From contig CM074127.1 in assembly GCA_037178625.1 (NCBI GenBank), positions 3,658,001 to 3,722,000 of the forward strand: DNA of 64,000 bases. Direction: 5' to 3'. This document shows positions 1-39,565 of this stretch, one piece after another; the first letter of the stretch is position 1, and the number at the start of each line of letters is the position of its first letter. The translations under genes and the position numbers were made by a program. Under the pieces are notes generated by a model. It was given only the letters and a program-made list of their open reading frames with translations, was not told where the DNA came from and ran no database searches. This DNA comes from Skeletonema tropicum (taxonomy: Eukaryota; Bacillariophyta; Thalassiosirophyceae; Thalassiosirales; Thalassiosiraceae).

Positions 1-1677
1 CAACCGATCATCCAACAAACATCTCGCATCCACCCCTGATGTAACAATGCCATCGAACTCCTCTCGAATTTCTTGCACGGATTTGCCAGCTAGATCACTT
101 GTTCCTTGTAAAGCACGATCCTTGTCCCTTCTTCCACCACCAAAAAAGTTACTTCCTCCACTTCCAATATCATTAGATCCAGTAGGTTCATAGGTCGCAG
201 AGGTTGGTTGTGAGCTTGGAAAGTTTGTGTCTTCTGTTACATCATTGATGCCGAAGTTAGCATCAAATGTTGTATCTACAATGCCACGAGAAGCGGTGGG
301 CTCGTAGGTCGCAGATGTTGGTTGTGAGCTTGGAAAGTTTGTGTCTTCTGTTACATCATTGATGCCGAAGTTAGCATCAAATGCTGTACCTACAATGCCA
401 CGAGAAGCGGTGGGCTCGTAGGTCGCAGAGGTTGGTTGTGAGCTTGGAAAGTTTGTGTCTTCTGTTACATCATTGATGCCGAAGTTAGCATCAAATGCTG
501 TACCTACAATGCCACGAGAAGCGGTGGGCTCGTAGGTCGCAGAGGTTGGTTGTGAGCTTGGAAAGTTTGTGTCTTCTGTTACATCATTGATGCCGAAGTT
601 AGCATCAAATGCTGTACCTACAATGCCACGAGAAGCAGTGGGCTCGTAGGTCGCAGAGGTTGGTTGTGAGCTTGGAAAGTCAGTGTCTTCTGTTGAATCA
701 TTGATGCCGAAGTTAGGATCAAATACATCAGCCTGCTCGTGTAGATTGTATTCAAAGTCCACCGCGTCTGCGTTACTGCCCGATACCGAATCACCATCCG
801 AAGAAAACCCTGATGGTAAACGAACATCCACCTGTTGCGCAAATGCATAGACATGTGCCCCATTTCTTTTATCGAATGGGAGGAGTGCATCAACTGTGTA
901 ACCTTCCTGTCCATCTGGTGATTCAACATGACCTGCCATGAGTAAACGAACACTTCTCGTGTCTTGCAAACTCCTAGCACCACCACCAAAAACGTCAGTT
1001 CCTCCGAGTTGTTCGTCAGATGCAGTCGGTTCATAGGTCGGGGAAGAAATACCAACTGGAGGAGAAGGTTGCTGCTGAGGAACAATATCCACTGGTGGTG
1101 TCGAATATTGTTCAAATCCATGCATGAACTCTCCGACATCCACCTCGTCAGAAAAGAGTATATCCATTGCAGAGCATGCCTCGTCTACATTTTCCGTACC
1201 AAATCGTCGGGAATGCACAACCTTTGGCTGCTTGCCTGAATTATCATCCCCAGGTAATGCCATTACTGCGTAGAAGCAATCACTCTTCTTCGGTGAGTAT
1301 CCTGGCACACCAGGATCTCCCATGTGCGGATGCAATCCTGTTTCCTTATCATTCCACCAATATCCATCGTTATTGGGATTGTTATCAGTCAGCTGTTGCT
1401 TCTCTGCATTGACCAGATAGGCATCCACTCCATCGAATGAGCTCGAGTATGTCGCGCCGGTAATGTAGAGAGAATGGTGACGTGCATCGTAGTGTATTGA
1501 TCCAGCAAAGGAAGAGGGATCAATTAGATCTCCAGCACTTTGGAAGTCCTTTTGTGAGAACTCGTAGGATTTGGATGAATCAGATTGATAAGCAAAGGGT
1601 GCAGCAGTTATGGTCATAGGTTGATTGCTGTAGAGCAGCAGCAGAAGAAAGGCTGGGCTATGGATATTCCACTTCAT
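1..1677 (-). CDS. Secreted repeat protein, partial (C-terminus beyond window)
   Basis: A reading frame opens at ATG 1677 (minus) and stays open for 559 codons to the window edge, so the 3' end is missing. The N-terminus (MKWNIHSPAFLLLLLYSNQP) is a clear signal peptide. Residues ~35-150 contain stretches such as SIHYDARHHSLYITGATY and DCFYAVMALPG that resemble SBBP beta-propeller blades. This resemblance is weak and unverified. After ~residue 300 come five near-identical 38-residue units (114 bp each) built around YEPTAS, FDANFGIND and EDTNFPSSQPTSAT. Two short stretches, FGGGARSLQD and FGGGRRDKDRALQG, flank the repeat block and contain RXL sequences, the cleavage motif known from diatom biosilica proteins. 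Probably secreted or cell-wall associated; function unknown. Confidence 0.75.
   Translation of the reverse strand, partial: MKWNIHSPAFLLLLLYSNQPMTITAAPFAYQSDSSKSYEFSQKDFQSAGDLIDPSSFAGSIHYDARHHSLYITGATYSSSFDGVDAYLVNAEKQQLTDNNPNNDGYWWNDKETGLHPHMGDPGVPGYSPKKSDCFYAVMALPGDDNSGKQPKVVHSRRFGTENVDEACSAMDILFSDEVDVGEFMHGFEQYSTPPVDIVPQQQPSPPVGISSPTYEPTASDEQLGGTDVFGGGARSLQDTRSVRLLMAGHVESPDGQEGYTVDALLPFDKRNGAHVYAFAQQVDVRLPSGFSSDGDSVSGSNADAVDFEYNLHEQADVFDPNFGINDSTEDTDFPSSQPTSATYEPTASRGIVGTAFDANFGINDVTEDTNFPSSQPTSATYEPTASRGIVGTAFDANFGINDVTEDTNFPSSQPTSATYEPTASRGIVGTAFDANFGINDVTEDTNFPSSQPTSATYEPTASRGIVDTTFDANFGINDVTEDTNFPSSQPTSATYEPTGSNDIGSGGSNFFGGGRRDKDRALQGTSDLAGKSVQEIREEFDGIVTSGVDARCLLDDRL
191..760 (-). repeat. 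Five tandem 114-bp coding repeats
   Basis: The phrase taggtcgcag recurs at 191, 305, 419, 533 and 647, exactly 114 bp apart. Units are nearly identical at the DNA level. The last copy (647-760) has diverged more. The period is a multiple of three, so copy number can change without breaking the frame. Confidence 0.95.
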
Positions 1678-2198
1678 TTTTATCGTCGTTGGTATCATTA
1701 GCTGTTGTGAACGGATGTCATGGTCTTGTGTCTTTATTCTTTATTTTATGCAAAGCGTTGTCTTCGATTCATGAGCGAGGTCTTGCATGCTATTTTCACT
1801 TTCTTCATTCACGAGTGGATTTTTTTATTCCCATGTCGAAAGGGCTGATACTCTTTAAATGGGACTCCCTCATCGATGAAACTCTTCCAAGCAGTTCGCT
1901 TGCGGGTAGACTTCGCTTGCTTTACACACCATTCATTTGAAGGTCATCAACGATCACTGAACTTGCTTCCAAGCAGTTCTACGCACGGCCGGCGAGGCAG
2001 GAAGTTGGAGGAACTTTAGCGCAGCAGTGGCTCAAGACTGATTGAGGAGTAGTTAGTTGTCGTCAGTGGCACCAGCTGTCAATCACATCCCTGCTCTGTT
2101 GCAGTCTTGCATGAACAATTGCCGCCGCCAGTTGTTTTATCTTTCATTCCATCAGCCTATTATAGAAATCCATTTTGCAAGCTAATTCAAATAAAAAA
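1678..2198. other. Divergent intergenic region
   Basis: This 521-bp gap lies between the start codons of the secreted repeat protein (minus) and the kinase (plus), so it should hold both promoters. I see no RNA gene or convincing ORF. The phrase 'cttccaagcagttc' occurs twice (1886 and 1969), a short direct repeat. Confidence 0.6.
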
Positions 2199-5100
2199 AT
2201 GGGTTGCACCGCTAGCAAACCTACAGCTGGCGCAGTATGCGTTGCATCCAACAAGCCCGTCGGCGCAGGTGAGTATGCGGTAGAGAGTGATGTCATACTG
2301 ACCACTGCACTGTTTGCGAGCACATTCTGACTTCCCCTCCTGCTGCATTACAACTGCACATTTGTACATCGTCGTGTAGAACAAACAACGTCTAGTCAAG
2401 TTGCGCCTACGAAAAAGACCCAACAAAAAGAAACAGTATGTCCAGTAGAACAGCGAGACCCCAACACAACAAATAACTGCCAAGATTCCCTCGCCAGGTT
2501 CTGAAGTATCATTCGATGGTTCAAGTCACTCGTCGTCTTCTTCGGTCAATTCAAAAAGACGATCAATAGGCATGAAGGGCTCTGCTAGTGCTTTGGGGCT
2601 GGATAAGATGATTGATGAGAAGAGAGATGCGAAGTCCATGTCTGAACGAGTAGTGCACATTGAGGTAAGGAACATTACCAATATCCTTTGTTGTAATACA
2701 ACTGCGTTCAAACATGTATTCACTTTAACGATTCTTCTCTATTAGGTTCCTTTTGGCAAACCAATCGAAGAAGTTTACTCTGGTGTTCACGATGGACCCG
2801 TCTTGGGTTCTGGTATTTCTGGTCTTGTCCGTCTAGTAACGCACAGGGCAACAGGTCTGAAATATGCAGTGAAGTGCCTTGATCTTGGCCTTGTCGACAC
2901 AGAAGAAGGCCTTCAGCAATTGCGAGAAGAAATTTACATCATGTGTCAATTGGACCATCCTAACATTGTCCGCCTTGAAGAAGTGTATGAATCGCATTCA
3001 GAGATATATCTAGTGCAAGAGTTGTGTCTTGGTGGTGAGCTTTTCGATCGTCTTGATGAGCAGCCTGACTATCATTACACCGAGGCACAATGTGCACGCT
3101 TGATAAAGCAAATGTTGTGCTCTGTCAGGTACATTCACTCGAAAGGGATCATTCACCGCGATCTAAAATTGGAGAACTTTCTCTTCAGTGATACTGGTCC
3201 TGATTCGGAGTTGAAAATGATTGATTTTGGTCTGTCGAAGCATTTCAAGTTTGGTGAAGTCCAGCACGAAGCTGTCGGTACTCCATACACTGTCGCACCT
3301 GAGGTCATTCGTGGCAGTTACGATGAAAGGTGTGATGTGTGGGCAATTGGAGTCATCACCTACCTGCTTCTATCCGGAGAGAGCCCATTTGGTGGTTGCG
3401 GTGGCCCAGAGTCTTTGGTTGTAGTGAGGGACAACATTTTAAAGTGTAACTTTGTCTTCGAGCCGGAAGACATTTGGGAAAATGTGTCAGAGAAGGCAAA
3501 GCAATTCATTCAAAAGCTGTTGGTCACTGATCCTAACCTGCGTCCAACTGCAAGGGAAGTTCAAAGAGATGAGTGGCTGATCGAAATGGCCGAGCGGTTG
3601 AAGAAAGATGACGATGACTATCGATTGAATCCAAGTGTTGTCAAGGCGCTAGTCAACTTTAAGGAGTACTCTGACATGAGAAAACTTCTGTGCGAAGTCC
3701 TAAGTTTCACGCTTATCCCAGATCAAATCCAGGGACTTCGTAAAGAGTTTGAGAAAATGGACTCAGAAGGTTCCGGGGAAATTTCATTAGTTGCTCTGAA
3801 GTCGGTTCTACTTGGGAATGCAGAGAGGGGAGCCCTTGGTGCTTTGACGGAAGAGGAAGTTGAGGACATTTTCAATGCCATGCGAGTGAGTAGCTGCGAA
3901 GAAACTACCATTCACTGGCATGAATTTATTGCTGCTGGTCTAAGTCACTGCGAGGTTGATGAGCGTAACTTGAGGCTTGCGTTTGATAGGCTTGATGCTG
4001 ATCACACCGGTTACATTACGTTTGAGAACTTTATGGATTTGATCGGAAATGGAGCTATGCATTCTGAGGAGGTGCTGCGACAAATGTGGGGTGAAGCTTC
4101 GATAAACAACGCGGATGCATATATTACTTATGAAGACTTCCTTCTATTGATGAAGGGTCAGTCAAAGCCGTCAAAACCAACTCAACCTCCACAACAGCCT
4201 GTCTTCAACCAGTCGAAACTACCTTTGCAGCCAGTGATAGAAGTTGCGAACGAACCTACCACACCACTAGATTCATCAGCTCCTAAGATGAGGGGATCTT
4301 TTGTTGGTTTTGTTCCATCTCCAGCTTCATTTGAAGAAGAAGAATCCGACGGCCCAATTTGCATGGATGATCCAGACGGCGATGATGGGTTGGTCAATCC
4401 TGCATTCGCTGAAGCTATGCGACATCAAAATAGCGGGGTAGTGCTGAAGGATAGTCTAGCCCCTGTATCTGTTTCTCCTACGAACTCAAGGGGTAGGTCA
4501 AAATCAGTTGGTGGTGATGAGGAAGCGAAGGAATCTCCAGCTACCACTCCTACAGCATACAAGGTGAATTCCCTCCGTGCCATCAATTTGCCAGAACACG
4601 GAGCAAATGACGAAAAGATGAATTTGATACTTAACGATATGACGAAGAGCACGTTAGTAGTTAATCGAGAGCTCTACAGAGCTCATCGAGGTATGCGCCT
4701 TGCCGTCTTAGAGGCATCAAAGAGGCTAGAAGAAGAGCAACAACGTCGAGCCAGGGAAGAGATCCGTAAGGAGCAAGCAAGAACAAGGAAAGCTGGGGCA
4801 GGACTTATCATGCGTCATGGAGGAGAACTGAGTGCTGACGCTATTAAACAATTTGTTGCCCAGCGCAAGAAAGAAGAGCAGGAAAAGGTCCAAGAGGCCA
4901 AAAGTCGAGGAGGACGTCGTCACAACCGGAACAAGACGGCATCAGATATTCGTGGCATGTTCGGAAGTTCTGGCTCTGAGTTGTCAAATCTTACATTGCC
5001 ACCAAAGCGTGAGAAACCAGCTGCTGGTGGAATCCCCAATTTCAACCAGGTACGTCCCCCTCTCACGCCTATCATGCCAACAAAGGAATCCATAGCTCCT

Positions 5101-5337
5101 GATTTGCCAGAGCTACCTGAAATGCGCGGCGCAACAAAACCTGGGCAGTTTCGCAAGACCCACGATCCATTTCGTCGCTTTGGCGTGGCAGGAAAAAATG
5201 GAGCAAAGGGAGGGGTTGATAAAGAGAGTGACCCCATTATTGACAGCTCCTTTCACAGACACATTGATTTAGGTGTTGGGATACGGAAACTCAAGTCAGA
5301 TGAGCACAGAAGACAAAAATTACCAAGTCAATCTTAG
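2199..5337 (+). CDS. CDPK-like Ca2+-dependent protein kinase
   Basis: Model: exons 2199-2268, 2498-2664 and 2746-5337, 942 aa, with GT-AG introns and matching phases. The start MGCTAS is a textbook N-myristoylation site with a palmitoylatable Cys3, so membrane attachment is likely. The kinase domain (~90-370) is complete: glycine loop GSGISG, AVK lysine, HRDLKLENFLF catalytic loop, DFGLSK, and VAPEV in the activation segment. The autoinhibitory/EF-hand region follows (~400-550). The EF-like loops deviate from consensus: DSEGSGEISLVA lacks the position-12 Glu, DADHTGYITFEN ends in Asn, and loops 2 and 4 lack several ligands. A long, low-complexity, partly coiled-coil basic tail (~560-942) is unusual for a CDPK. 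Kinase call is firm; Ca2+ dependence is inferred. Confidence 0.88.
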
Positions 5338-35523: not shown

Positions 35524-36077
35524 TGCCTAAAGAGAAATTGGTGGAGATGCCGATGGAATGACCGTATTGCAGCAGGCACACTAACGAGCACGGAGGCGAG
35601 CCGAGCATTGAGCGGTGGAATGTGGAATGTTGCATACAGCAAGAGAGCAATTGCTTATGTAAGATGCAAAAATGCCAGCAAGCCGCGCTCGCGCATACTT
35701 AGCCGCGCATAGCCCTACTTTTACCTCTGCCTGCCTGCCTCTTGGCCAAAGTTTGCAGCGCTTTTCCTGCGGAAAACCGGCGTCGCGCCTTGGTCCTCCT
35801 GTGTGGTCTGTCACGCTAGAAAAAGAGGTACTAGAGCTGCTTATTGCAGACTACGTTATGTGTATGCAAAGATGTCTCTAGTAATCAGGTACAAACTACT
35901 CTTAGTTTGGACCCAGCCTCGAAAGCCGAAGTAAATTCGGCAGTGTCAGCCGGGTCGGGTGGGTGGGAAAAAAAAGATGAACAGCTATAGGATTGTTCTA
36001 CACGATATTGGTGCTTGATGAACAATGTCCATGAACCCTGAGAATAGGGCAAATAAGTACGTAGGAATTCCATACAT
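35524..36077. other. Intergenic left of the transposon
   Basis: About 550 bp. Positions 36015-36077 show weaker inverted similarity to 39249-39290, so the transposon ends could lie further out than the near-identical arms. No gene. Confidence 0.45.
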
Positions 36078-36332
36078 GCCTGTCCCCCGTTTTTTTTTGG
36101 TTCCGACGATCTCCACTTTTTGCTCTCCACCGCCGCAGCCACAAAGATCCGCCCTCCCGTAGTATCATATTACCACCCATACCATAGGGCACACACAACG
36201 CATAATAACTTGATAACATACTGTCCCCTACAGAATTTTCCGTAGAATTCAACGGTGGCCGCCGATTTGTTACGTTTGCAGCGGTTTTATTTACGTATCG
36301 TCATAAAGCTGACGGTGCGTGATAATTAATTT
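36078..36332 (+). repeat. Left terminal inverted repeat
   Basis: Matches the reverse complement of 38993-39248 with only scattered differences, for example gtgg/ttgg near 36175 and an indel in the T-run at 36091. Confidence 0.92.
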
Positions 36333-36333
36333 G

Positions 36334-37303
36334 GCATTACAATGCGTTAAATAATGTCCTCAAGTATGAAGATTTCAAAAGCCTCATTGATGAAGTTTGC
36401 AATGAATTGCTTGGTGACGAAGATGCGCCACACGACGATGTGTTGATTACTGGGAATGCAACAGGTTTGGATCGGCTTGGTCTTCTAAAAACTTTGGAGT
36501 GCGACGAGAATGAAGCAGAAAACGGTGACAAAGATGCAACAAATGAAAAGGAGAGTACTGCGTTAGTGACTGATGCAGTAGAATGGTTCAAACAACGCAA
36601 GGCAATGAACTTGGCAGAAGAGAAGGAGAAAGAGAAGGGTGGTAAGAAACGTGCACCACTCCTCAGTCCGGAACGTCTACGAGAACAACATGAGGCTATT
36701 TTGAGAGCTGGTGCAAATGAGAGTGGGTTACGTAAACTGCGGCAGCTGGAGCGCCATGAGAGGCTTCACCGCTGTTACGAAGATGGCAAACTTCGTAAGT
36801 GCTTGCTTTCATACTTTTTACTTGCGGCAAAAGAGTTACTTCGTTGGATGGGGAGTGAGATGATTGATCATGACAAAGTTGCTATGCCAACATTGGAGGA
36901 GCTCCCCACAATTTGGTTGCGGCTAGCGAAGATTCCAAAGGAGTATAAGATCTTGGCCGATAAGGGTTTTGCTGATACAGATCGTGACTACCCAAATTTC
37001 AACACTGTAGAGACGCCTACAAAGCTTGCTGCAACCAAAGCGTATCGGAAGGCACCAGAGCATATCAAACGTGACAGGCCATTGACTAGCTCTCGTTTCT
37101 CCGCAGAGACAGTCTTCAGTAGAGTGTACAGTGAAGATATTTTGAATGGAAAGATTCCATACTACTTGATACCTCTCTTACCATATGCACATTCCCTGGC
37201 ACATGGCGAGGCGAATCTAGATCAACCATTTCGTACACCAGGTGATAACTCGATCGTTGCGGAGGAGTACTGGCCCAAAAACAAGAAGAGTCGTAAATCA
37301 TAA
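36334..37303 (+). pseudogene. Transposase-like ORF without a start codon
   Basis: Open from just inside the left arm (in-frame stop at the arm edge) to TAA 37303, ~320 codons, with no ATG before the conserved-looking part. The C-terminal portion has ILADKGFADTDRDYPNFN, TPTKL and TSSRFSAETVFSRVYSED. ADKGF followed by a downstream R..E is the pattern of the second Asp and the Glu in IS4/IS5-like DDE (DDE_Tnp_4, PIF/ISL2EU) transposases. The region expected to hold the first Asp is not recognisable. Probably a 5'-truncated transposase, or an exon whose first exon is elsewhere. Its stop is 9 bp from the stop of the opposite gene. Confidence 0.5.
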
Positions 37304-37311
37304 ATGTTATA

Positions 37312-38981
37312 TTAATCATTTCGCTTTCGTTTATTACCTGCTTGCCTCTTAGTTTGAGCTTGCTGCCTATTAAAAATATCTAATGCATGCAAGTTCTCAA
37401 TCAATACTGGTTCAGCTTGTACAAGCTTTGGAGACACAGGATATCCTGTCTCAAATTCCTTCTGTGAAGCACTACGCTGCACTAATGCTAGCACCAAGAG
37501 GAAAGCAATCATATGCGAGCAAAAGAGTGATCCATCTTCGCAACTGCATGTTGACAGTGGGGATGATAGAAAGTCCCCGTCCTTCTTATCTTCAAAGACG
37601 GCATGGATGGTATGGATGACAGGTCGGACAGAACTCAGAGCTTCGCAGCGCAATAGCAGGCAAGATGAATTGTCTATTTTGGATGTCACATTGCAACATT
37701 GGATAGAGCGTGGATTGATGTTTCCTCCTTTCAAGAGTAGTATTGCTCGTGATCTCATTCCTGGAAGGGCTCCATCCAACTTCTCTTCCATGTAGCTGTC
37801 ACTTACATCTCTAACGAGTTTTGCAATTGTGTAGTAGTCTTTGTCCCAAGAGTCAAACTTATTGTTAGCAATTCGTGCCTCTAACGCCTCAAATCCGTTG
37901 TACTTTCCCATTAGAAACTTGATACTAGGAGGAAGCACAGGTTTGTTGTTAGCTAATGCCCACCGTACATTCCGCTCGATAATTGATGTCGACTCCTTGG
38001 TACAACCGACACATTCCCGGTACTCTGACATTTCTGAAATACCGGTGCATGCAAGAGGTAACGGCGTGCTGCTTCGTAATCTGCCGCATAATTGTCGGGT
38101 GCATTCTTATTTGTAGCCCCCAATGTCTTCACCCACTCCTCGCGGTCACTTGCTGCGGCTAGTTTATCAATCAATCCACCATCTTTCAGAACAGTCTTCT
38201 TTCCAACTAAGCGGATGTTTGGATGGTAATCATTACCTAGGAGCAGAGCGATGTCAACAATATTGTTGGGATGTTGTGCCAATTTAGACGATGTTTCTCG
38301 CTCAATGAATTCTTTCTTTTCGTAGATGCGTGAAAATAACTTTCCTGATTCTGTTTTCCATTTAGATAGAACCATCTCGCTGTTCAGGATAATCAGGTCG
38401 CCATCCTCTGTCGCAATTGCGTCAACAACACCGTCCATCTCCAGCTTCCTCATCTGTTGGTCTGCCTCAAATAAAGAGCCAACCATCCAGATGCCTTTAC
38501 TTGCCATCCAAGAAATAACTGCTGCATGATCGGCTGCGGTAGGATGCGCCTTTTTCATTCTACTTGCAATTGCTTGTTCCACCTCTTCTTCTTCAAAGTT
38601 AAGGGGTGCAGCATCATCTTGCAGTTGCAACACATCACACAAAAACTTATCATACTCTTCCCCACCTTTGTTGCGATCACCTTGCCTACGCAACTTCTCT
38701 CTATTCTTTATTGGCGGCGCTTTCCCGTCAAATACGTAGCAGGGTATTACTCCTGCATCAATCACCAGGTCGTGAAACTCTTGCACGTAGTCTAATATAT
38801 CCGGAGATGCATAAGTTGGTTCGTTTGTTGAAGTCAGTTTCGTCAGCTCCTTGCCGTTTACCTTGTTCAATATGATTGCAGCATCGAAGGCAACTCTTTT
38901 CCCTTTCAAAATAGATAATGCTTGGTGTGGTTTGCTGCTAAAGCCACCCAAAGCATGCACCCAGAGGTGACGGACTGTCAT
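37312..38981 (-). CDS. XPG/FEN1-like nuclease joined to a SWIM zinc finger (frame break)
   Basis: Frame 1 (38981 to 37953) starts MTVRHLWVHALGGFSSKP. It carries the XPG N-region (LKGKRVAFDAAIILNK, GVIPCYVFDGKAPPIK) and I-region (AIATEDGDLIILNSEMVLSKW, VDIALLLGNDYHPNIRLVG), whose acidic residues bind metal in flap endonucleases. Frame 2 (38031 to 37312) continues the same coding direction and carries a SWIM finger (CSCEDGSLFCSHM) and a basic tail (KRQAGNKRKRND). The frames overlap near 38030 and need a -1 (or +2) shift to join. Either one protein broken by an indel, or two overlapping products. Presumably handles DNA ends during transposition. Confidence 0.7.
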
Positions 38982-38992
38982 CGGCGTGGAAT

Positions 38993-39248
38993 AAATTAAT
39001 TATCACGCACCGTCAGCTTTATGACGATACGTAAATAAAACCGCTGCAAACGTAACAAATCGGCGGCCACCGTTGAATTCTACGGAAAATTCTGTAGGGG
39101 ACAGTATGTTATCAAGTTATTATGCGTTGTGTGTGCCCTATGGTATGGTTGGTAGTATGATACTACGGGAGGGCGGATCTTTTGTGGCTACGGTGGTGGA
39201 GAGCAAAAAGTTGAGATCGTCGGAACCAAAAAAAAACGGGGGACAGGC
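38993..39248 (-). repeat. Right terminal inverted repeat
   Basis: Inverted copy of 36078-36332. Small ORFs here and in the left arm (both beginning MNSTENSVGDSM) are artefacts of the repeat. Confidence 0.92.
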
Positions 39249-39565
39249 TTTACGTAGGGATTCTCACGGTTCATGGCTGTTCTCTCTCTCTCAACATCCC
39301 TTCTGTCTGTCCCTAACGACCAGAGCGATGCGAGAAGCCGGAAGAAAGAGAAGGAGAAAGACAGGTGTGACAAGATCCGATTTCGTGCGGGCCAAGTCTA
39401 CCTGTGAGAGGAGCGTAGTCGGAAAAGCGGGTATCGTAGGATAAAAGAGAAATACACCCCTAATTCTTGCGAACAGGGAGTCGTCGGGGAATCAGGAATC
39501 AATCATCATTCACCACAACACATTATCATCAATCAATCATCATCATTTTTTTGTTTGAAAAAATT

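Follow-up and report, generated by a model that had tools for sequence, protein, structure and literature searches.

An ISL2EU-like DNA transposon with an XPG/EXO1-like nuclease as its second gene

Transposons of the ISL2EU kind encode a transposase with DDE, HTH and THAP domains and a YqaJ nuclease as second protein, and are found in animals only according to PMC4482050; their arms are up to 259 bp long, the mean element measures 4.8 kb, AT is duplicated within A|AT|T and the ends are usually GG. YqaJ as second protein is likewise given in PMC9179366. PIF/Harbinger elements have TWA duplications and a Myb/SANT second protein (PMC4482050), AcademX elements carry a nuclease and have target duplications of 3 or 4 bp (PMC10045372), and accessory proteins of Kolobok elements are a lambda-exonuclease-like nuclease in KolobokE and a RecQ helicase in KolobokH (PMC9587614). 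In the 64,000-nucleotide stretch of DNA analysed here (the window), a 3,240-bp DNA transposon was located at 36033-39272. This copy has lost internal parts of a larger inferred parent, in which a nuclease of the XPG/EXO1 type stands beside an ISL2EU-like transposase.

Anatomy and copies of the element

An initial annotation, made from the letters of the window, had described a DNA transposon with near-identical inverted arms at 36078..39248. The arms were borne out (190 nt at 99% and 68 nt at 96%; 97.7% across 256 columns, far above chance), but the extent was too small: the true ends lie 45 bp (left) and 24 bp (right) outside the arms, at the terminus GAACC[C/G]TGAGAAT adjoining AT that is common to the copies. 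The boundaries 36078/39248 were ruled out as termini because copies extend outward to this common end. Taken alone, this anatomy is held with very high confidence. The following features were assigned.

36031..36032, no strand: left target-site duplication AT (AT/AT in 16 of 18 two-ended copies; single AT in the empty site)
36033..39272, no strand: the complete element, which lacks internal parts of the inferred ~5.3-kb parent (ends common to copies)
36033..36077, plus: outer left end, GAACCCTGAGAAT..., beyond the arms of the initial annotation (copy comparison)
36078..36318, plus: left arm, 241 nt (shared with 17 fetched copies at their left ends)
36319..36332, plus: deletion-junction patch of 14 nt with the same sequence as the right arm's inner edge in inverted orientation
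36333..37303, plus: transposase remnant, C-terminal third, with the second D (ADKGF) at ~36959 followed by E; the deletion took the N-terminal part and the first D
37312..37998, minus: nuclease gene, C-terminal part encoding the SWIM finger CxCx6CxH; its frame differs here from that of the XPG part
37999..38981, minus: XPG part of the nuclease gene; start codon 38981, XPG_N ~38924-38670, XPG_I ~38495-38229
38993..39248, minus: right arm as reported initially, of which 39007-39248 pairs with the left arms of other copies
39249..39272, minus: outer right end (copy comparison)
39273..39274, no strand: right target-site duplication AT (AT/AT flanks of copies; empty site)
35970..36032, no strand: target, a dispersed LTR-like repeat of ~200 bp hit by the element, here its left part (right part 39273-39407)

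The host genome (78.4 Mb, 125 contigs) was searched with the window element, which gave at least 114 matches from the 40 of 41 candidates scored. Twenty stretches and 6 more were fetched and, including the window, 27 were mapped; 21 (the window and the first 20) were inspected for ends, and both ends were present in 18 (not in L045, L046 and L050). With these 18 two-ended copies and their AT target duplications, the annotation as a multi-copy DNA transposon was confirmed. The flanks read AT/AT in 16 of the 18. When the flanks of copy L043 were joined with one AT kept, all 298 bases were matched without net gaps in 40 of 40 places scored (of 72 candidates), at 99-100% identity in all 40 and with the top score in five. 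The window flanks joined in the same way (198 nt, one AT) were matched over 1-198 at 99% in 17 of 40 places scored (77 candidates), and from 2-198 or 3-198 in the other 23. Because the flanks are AT/AT in 16 of 18 copies and the empty sites of two insertions hold a single AT, insertion duplicates the 2-bp AT. Counted over all 18 copies, with the exceptions and the shared window/L047 site included, the base preceding AT is C in 10, T in 3, G in 3 and A in 2, and the base following it is G in 7, A in 5, T in 3 and C in 3.

Flanking sequences differ among all 18 copies, except for the window and L047. The window copy is inserted in a dispersed repeat of ~200 bp, several copies of which lie 6.8 kb apart, an LTR-like spacing. 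On another contig, L047 (C6:844200-849200), a copy whose deletions differ, occupies the same point of this LTR-like repeat (window 35970-39407), either through duplication after insertion or through a repeated hit of one site.

As a coordinate ruler, a parent of 5,308 bp was joined from two overlapping copies. Its plus strand holds the transposase frame (start 317, stop 3025, ~902 codons) and its minus strand the nuclease (5016 to 3034, 659 codons), the two genes being convergent with stop codons 8 nt apart. The paired arms lie at 47-287 and 5042-5283, with the starts inside them by 29 bp (transposase) and 25 bp (nuclease). As the start codons lie just inside the arms, each arm is, by position, a putative promoter, and both genes could plausibly be read from the arms. 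The distance of up to 12 bp between arm and nuclease start that had been noted initially holds for the window copy, where the ATG is 11 bp inside the arm, but not for the parent, where it is 25 bp inside the paired arms. At its inner end, the window left arm agrees with the inverted right arm over 14 nt (36319-36332), unlike the left arms of other copies; since the patch is absent from these, the paired arms are 14 nt shorter in the parent than in the window. On contig 15 most of the parent is present, in pieces split by other DNA. Identity to the ruler is 98.99-100% across the segments of the 18 copies, and the transposon has thus been active recently.

Neither gene is intact in the window copy. 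Ruler positions 288-2042 are missing, and with them the N-terminal part of the transposase and its first catalytic Asp; the transposase-like ORF with ADKGF described initially on the strand opposite the nuclease is thus present, but as a remnant. Within the nuclease gene, a deletion of ~310 bp at 37998 has put the XPG frame (38981-37953) and the SWIM frame (38031-37312) in different reading frames. XPG and SWIM form one 659-codon frame in four copies (L032, L035, L037 and L038), and open frames of other lengths were found in L033 (663) and L039 (683). An intron between the window frames was ruled out, as the intact copies have ~310 bp extra and one frame.

Internal deletions relative to the parent were found in 18 of 18 copies, with 26 junctions (24 distinct) and at least one per copy; the junctions have overlaps of 0-5 nt or fillers of 2-14 nt. 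The 14-nt filler of the window seems to stem from repair synthesis that switched from one arm to the other. Elsewhere, the 8-nt filler of L042 is possibly the inverse of the adjacent 8 nt, and the other four gave only short, chance-level matches. By analogy, the junctions resemble leftovers of aborted copying repair of a double-strand gap, a process established as a source of such internal deletions for P elements and Ac/Ds. One deletion is common to L035, L037 and L038, which lie at three different sites; the defective copy was therefore, most simply, mobilised in trans. As a side observation, a 46-bp match recurs every ~2.54 kb, 29 times, in a long tandem array (G000, C11:182295-253411).

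The two proteins, their relatives and sister families

In the window nuclease, XPG_I (E 1.8e-10) and XPG_N (3.3e-6) were both over the Pfam cut-offs, and SWIM (0.0061) was under its cut-off; the 659-codon nuclease gave 6e-10 and 5.1e-6, over the cut-off, and 0.021 for SWIM, again under. The minus-strand XPG and SWIM gene of the initial annotation is thereby upheld in its XPG regions, but its SWIM finger falls below the cut-off and its frames are split by the deletion. SWIM scores were 14.8-16.5 bits against a cut-off of 19.6, and CxCx6CxH is kept in 8 of the 8 alignment rows reaching it. Among nuclease members at E ≤ 0.05, XPG_I was matched in 9 of 9 and XPG_N in 8 of 9. The closest solved structures by sequence were FEN1 (3.1e-9), RAD2 (1.8e-8) and EXO1 (8.5e-6); a search with the predicted fold, a model of middling quality (pLDDT 66.5), placed EXO1 first (3e-11), then FEN1, Rad2 and XPG.

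Ten nuclease relatives, 34-93% identical, were found among 7,996 scored candidates, and a profile search with the nuclease alignment returned, from the best 7,997 candidates, 10 proteins, of which 4 were new and short (P0031-P0034). The named relatives are diatom proteins, by which the host is probably a diatom as well; P0010 is from Skeletonema marinoi, and P0008 is an MMETSP transcript of 658 residues, labelled complete. In the alignment (A1: L032 and 8 of the 10 relatives, P0002 and P0003 being dropped as short or gapped), E172, D174, D193, D195 and D251 are invariant in the 9 aligned nucleases, D34 is kept in 7 of 7 rows reaching it and D86 in 7 of 8. These seven residues are taken to be the equivalents of the FEN1 metal ligands. 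By sequence, the second protein is assigned to the XPG/Rad2 nuclease superfamily. Myb/SANT was not among the Pfam matches of the XPG-SWIM protein. YqaJ was matched once in the host genome (E 3.78; counted with its neighbours 24.2 bits, the cut-off being 22 bits), and the 3.1-kb locus of this match had no match to the nuclease or transposase profile.

The transposase remnant of the window matched DDE_Tnp_4 at E 0.11-0.12, under the Pfam cut-off. In a scan of 19 transposase members, DDE_Tnp_4 was matched at E ≤ 0.01 in 3 (best 0.00039) and HTH_Tnp_4 in 1, the scores seen being below cut-off; the profile searches proposed initially thus placed XPG_N and XPG_I above their cut-offs, but SWIM and DDE_Tnp_4 of the present family (family A) below theirs. 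Two sister families in the genome exceeded the 24.8-bit DDE_Tnp_4 cut-off, at 30.1 bits (L059, family C) and 25.8 bits (L061, family D). A second look at the transposase model with VIA returned a DDE list, unlike Foldseek alone. A profile search of solved structures with the transposase (E ≤ 10) returned PHD-type fingers, coiled coils and other weak matches and no DDE transposase. THAP was absent from the 9 Pfam families matched by the 19 members, and the N-terminal CxCxWxxC...H pattern presumably does no more than resemble the THAP motif. Short or gapped sequences were left out of the transposase alignments (A2: P0012, P0013 and P0026; A3: these and L040, P0014 and P0015). Between the first and second catalytic Asp (A3, D211-D516 of L053), ~230 extra residues are present in family A, and in family B as far as seen, compared with families C and D. 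Several related transposases (P0016-P0021 and P0023-P0025) have a Cys/His-rich C-terminal finger that is not in family A, with PHD fingers as best PDB profile matches.

For a nuclease relative (P0001, 82%) and a transposase relative (P0011, 83%), the database entry names one ENA contig, 5,793 bp long in both cases and most likely a single contig with one complete element; no further pair on equally sized contigs was seen among the other relatives. On the question, raised initially, whether the two genes always travel together, the recurrence of both as relatives, once with contigs of equal size, speaks in favour; families C and D, which have DDE and SWIM proteins with no XPG match, speak against.

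Family B (L058, C23) is a second divergent XPG and DDE family in the genome, with an XPG region bearing the same acids (2.8e-30 to the nuclease profile). In L058, positions 1334-3256 join XPG and the C-terminal half of the DDE transposase (4.1e-38 to the transposase profile) in one 641-codon frame, the N-terminal half lies on the opposite strand, and no SWIM match was found. L058 is a rearranged element or a fusion gene and looks rearranged; the family is nearly single copy, with one partial relative at 84% and short matches among the best 40 of 77 candidates. Families C and D have a DDE transposase (8.3e-79 and 2.9e-73 to the transposase profile) and a SWIM protein (3.1e-19 and 6.6e-16). The flanks of L059 are readable as AT/AT, and in L061 the middle region of the nuclease was matched as well, but weakly (0.037). 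The genes of C and D face outward, and their middle may lack a part; XPG may therefore equally have been lost or never been there.

L059, C22:1174920-1177948 and ~30 relatives at 68-76% DNA identity are SWIM and DDE elements without an XPG match, and 4 of the 6 listed with both end regions measure about 2.9-3.0 kb. Internal deletion may be rarer here than in family A, a comparison between copies of different ages (L060 is decayed) and not a controlled contrast. In L063 (C9:292600-298600), an 813-residue minus-strand frame (5047-2609) combines a SET domain (Pfam 7.3e-16) with a transposase-like part resembling the N-terminal end of the family B transposase (32% over 109 residues, E 3.3e-7), possibly a SETMAR-like domesticated fusion.

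Proposed role of the nuclease

In the preferred reading (probability roughly 55%), the nuclease of this ISL2EU-like transposon replaces YqaJ and resects the donor break 5'-to-3' for copying repair. The DDE transposase would bind the ~255-bp arms, excise the element and insert it at AT, the duplication of which was observed, and each arm, by its position, would double as promoter of the neighbouring gene. The nuclease would act 5'-to-3' on DNA ends that transposition creates and would, most likely, resect the donor break and so lead to copying repair; this would restore the element or, when aborted, leave an internally deleted copy. YqaJ and lambda-exonuclease-like enzymes, as well as EXO1, are 5'-to-3' exonucleases. 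A number of findings weigh on the other side. The uninterrupted ~5.3-kb parent was found in 0 of 27 mapped stretches, and L033 (GT/AG) and L044 (AT/TG), 2 of 18, are without clean ends and AT/AT flanks, with deviating terminal bases. The family A transposase scored 17.3 and 20.1 bits for DDE_Tnp_4, below cut-off, and its model gave no Foldseek match at E ≤ 0.001 (best Mos1, 0.012). P0004 has G instead of an acid at D86. No XPG match was found in families C and D and ~30 further relatives of the same genome, and the lineage as a whole thus does not need XPG. Internal deletions also occur in nuclease-free elements (P, Ac/Ds) and give no pointer to the nuclease.

The nuclease could instead act like FEN1 at the insertion site and trim 5' flaps arising from gap filling beside the new copy, with no part in donor repair. 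Insertion of DDE elements leaves gaps that must be filled, and FEN1 leads the sequence search; as EXO1 leads the fold search, albeit with a model of pLDDT only 66.5, and host FEN1 should already do this job, such a role is considered rather unlikely. Chance capture of the nuclease as passenger DNA with no part in transposition would fit families C and D and the lack of the 659-codon frame in 14 of 18 two-ended copies, but is improbable in view of relatives at 34-43% identity over most of their length with conserved acids, the complete transcriptome frame of P0008 and the second divergent XPG and DDE family; such long conservation argues for selection. The idea of an ordinary host gene between unrelated inverted repeats, for which no supporting point was found, is next to impossible: the same arms and gene recur at many places, as the initial annotation had expected of a transposon gene, and these further copies rule out chance repeats. 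Three weaker XPG-type frames on C13, C19 and C7 (E 3.3e-7 to 2.4e-5) are candidate host XPG genes.

AcademX nucleases are of the XPG type, and an XPG nuclease beside a DDE transposase would suit a member of the Academ superfamily. Such membership is very improbable, slightly more so than chance capture: AcademX, set apart here by description, has duplications of 3 or 4 bp against the 2-bp AT found (PMC10045372), and sister families C and D match DDE_Tnp_4 above cut-off. Viral contigs were also tried as a source of relatives; 74 stretches fitted a pattern and 0 were confirmed.

Compatible with the preferred reading, but of fairly low probability, is a wider view of the accessory proteins of unrelated transposons (YqaJ, lambda-exonuclease-like, RecQ, XPG) as interchangeable resection modules, with SWIM as usual partner and the nuclease swappable: no nuclease was seen in C and D, XPG is in A and YqaJ in animals, and the SWIM partner is in A, C and D. 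By driving the donor break into copying repair, such modules would turn excision into a gain of copies, and internally deleted ones would arise on the side. This view is slightly weakened by family B, which has XPG without a SWIM match and is perhaps an exception, being rearranged.

Comparison with known transposons

The closest kind is ISL2EU, with which the element shares the AT target duplication, two genes and a nuclease as second gene, a DDE_Tnp_4 match above cut-off in sister families C and D, and arm and element lengths within or near ISL2EU values (PMC4482050). It differs in its XPG_N/XPG_I nuclease instead of YqaJ, in ends beginning GAACC instead of GG, in the lack of an A|AT|T preference, in a transposase in which THAP was not recognised by Pfam, and in its host, probably a diatom instead of an animal (PMC4482050). 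Family A further differs from C and D in the ~230 residues added between the first two Asp. Because AT is shared but A|AT|T, GG ends and YqaJ are not, the element is ISL2EU-like rather than a member. With AcademX it has in common a DDE element with a nuclease, but not the length of the target duplication (PMC10045372). KolobokE and KolobokH are likewise DDE transposons with an accessory nuclease or helicase, but have TTAA duplications, a transposase of another superfamily and another nuclease fold (PMC9587614). PIF/Harbinger is also a two-gene DDE element, with TWA instead of AT duplications and Myb/SANT instead of XPG-SWIM as second protein (PMC4482050). EXO1, FEN1 and XPG nucleases share the XPG_N and XPG_I regions, the acids and the predicted fold, whereas the present nuclease has a long middle region and a SWIM finger and is encoded by a transposon.

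A transposon-borne XPG nuclease is not new as such, AcademX being the precedent. The initial statement that such nucleases are not a standard cargo of known superfamilies was too strong, as AcademX carries a nuclease (PMC10045372). XPG is not mentioned in PMC9179366, PMC9587614 and PMC10045372. No ISL2EU- or Harbinger-like element with XPG was seen in the literature searched, outside of which lie many subscription papers and Repbase Reports. With related transposases with and without the nuclease, one genome offers a natural contrast by which the role of transposon-borne nucleases and helicases becomes directly testable. The element places an XPG/EXO1-type nuclease in an ISL2EU-like transposon, probably in diatoms, where ISL2EU itself is given for animals only (PMC4482050), and the fusion of XPG to SWIM beside an ISL2EU-like transposase is, as far as the literature was searched, a new pairing.
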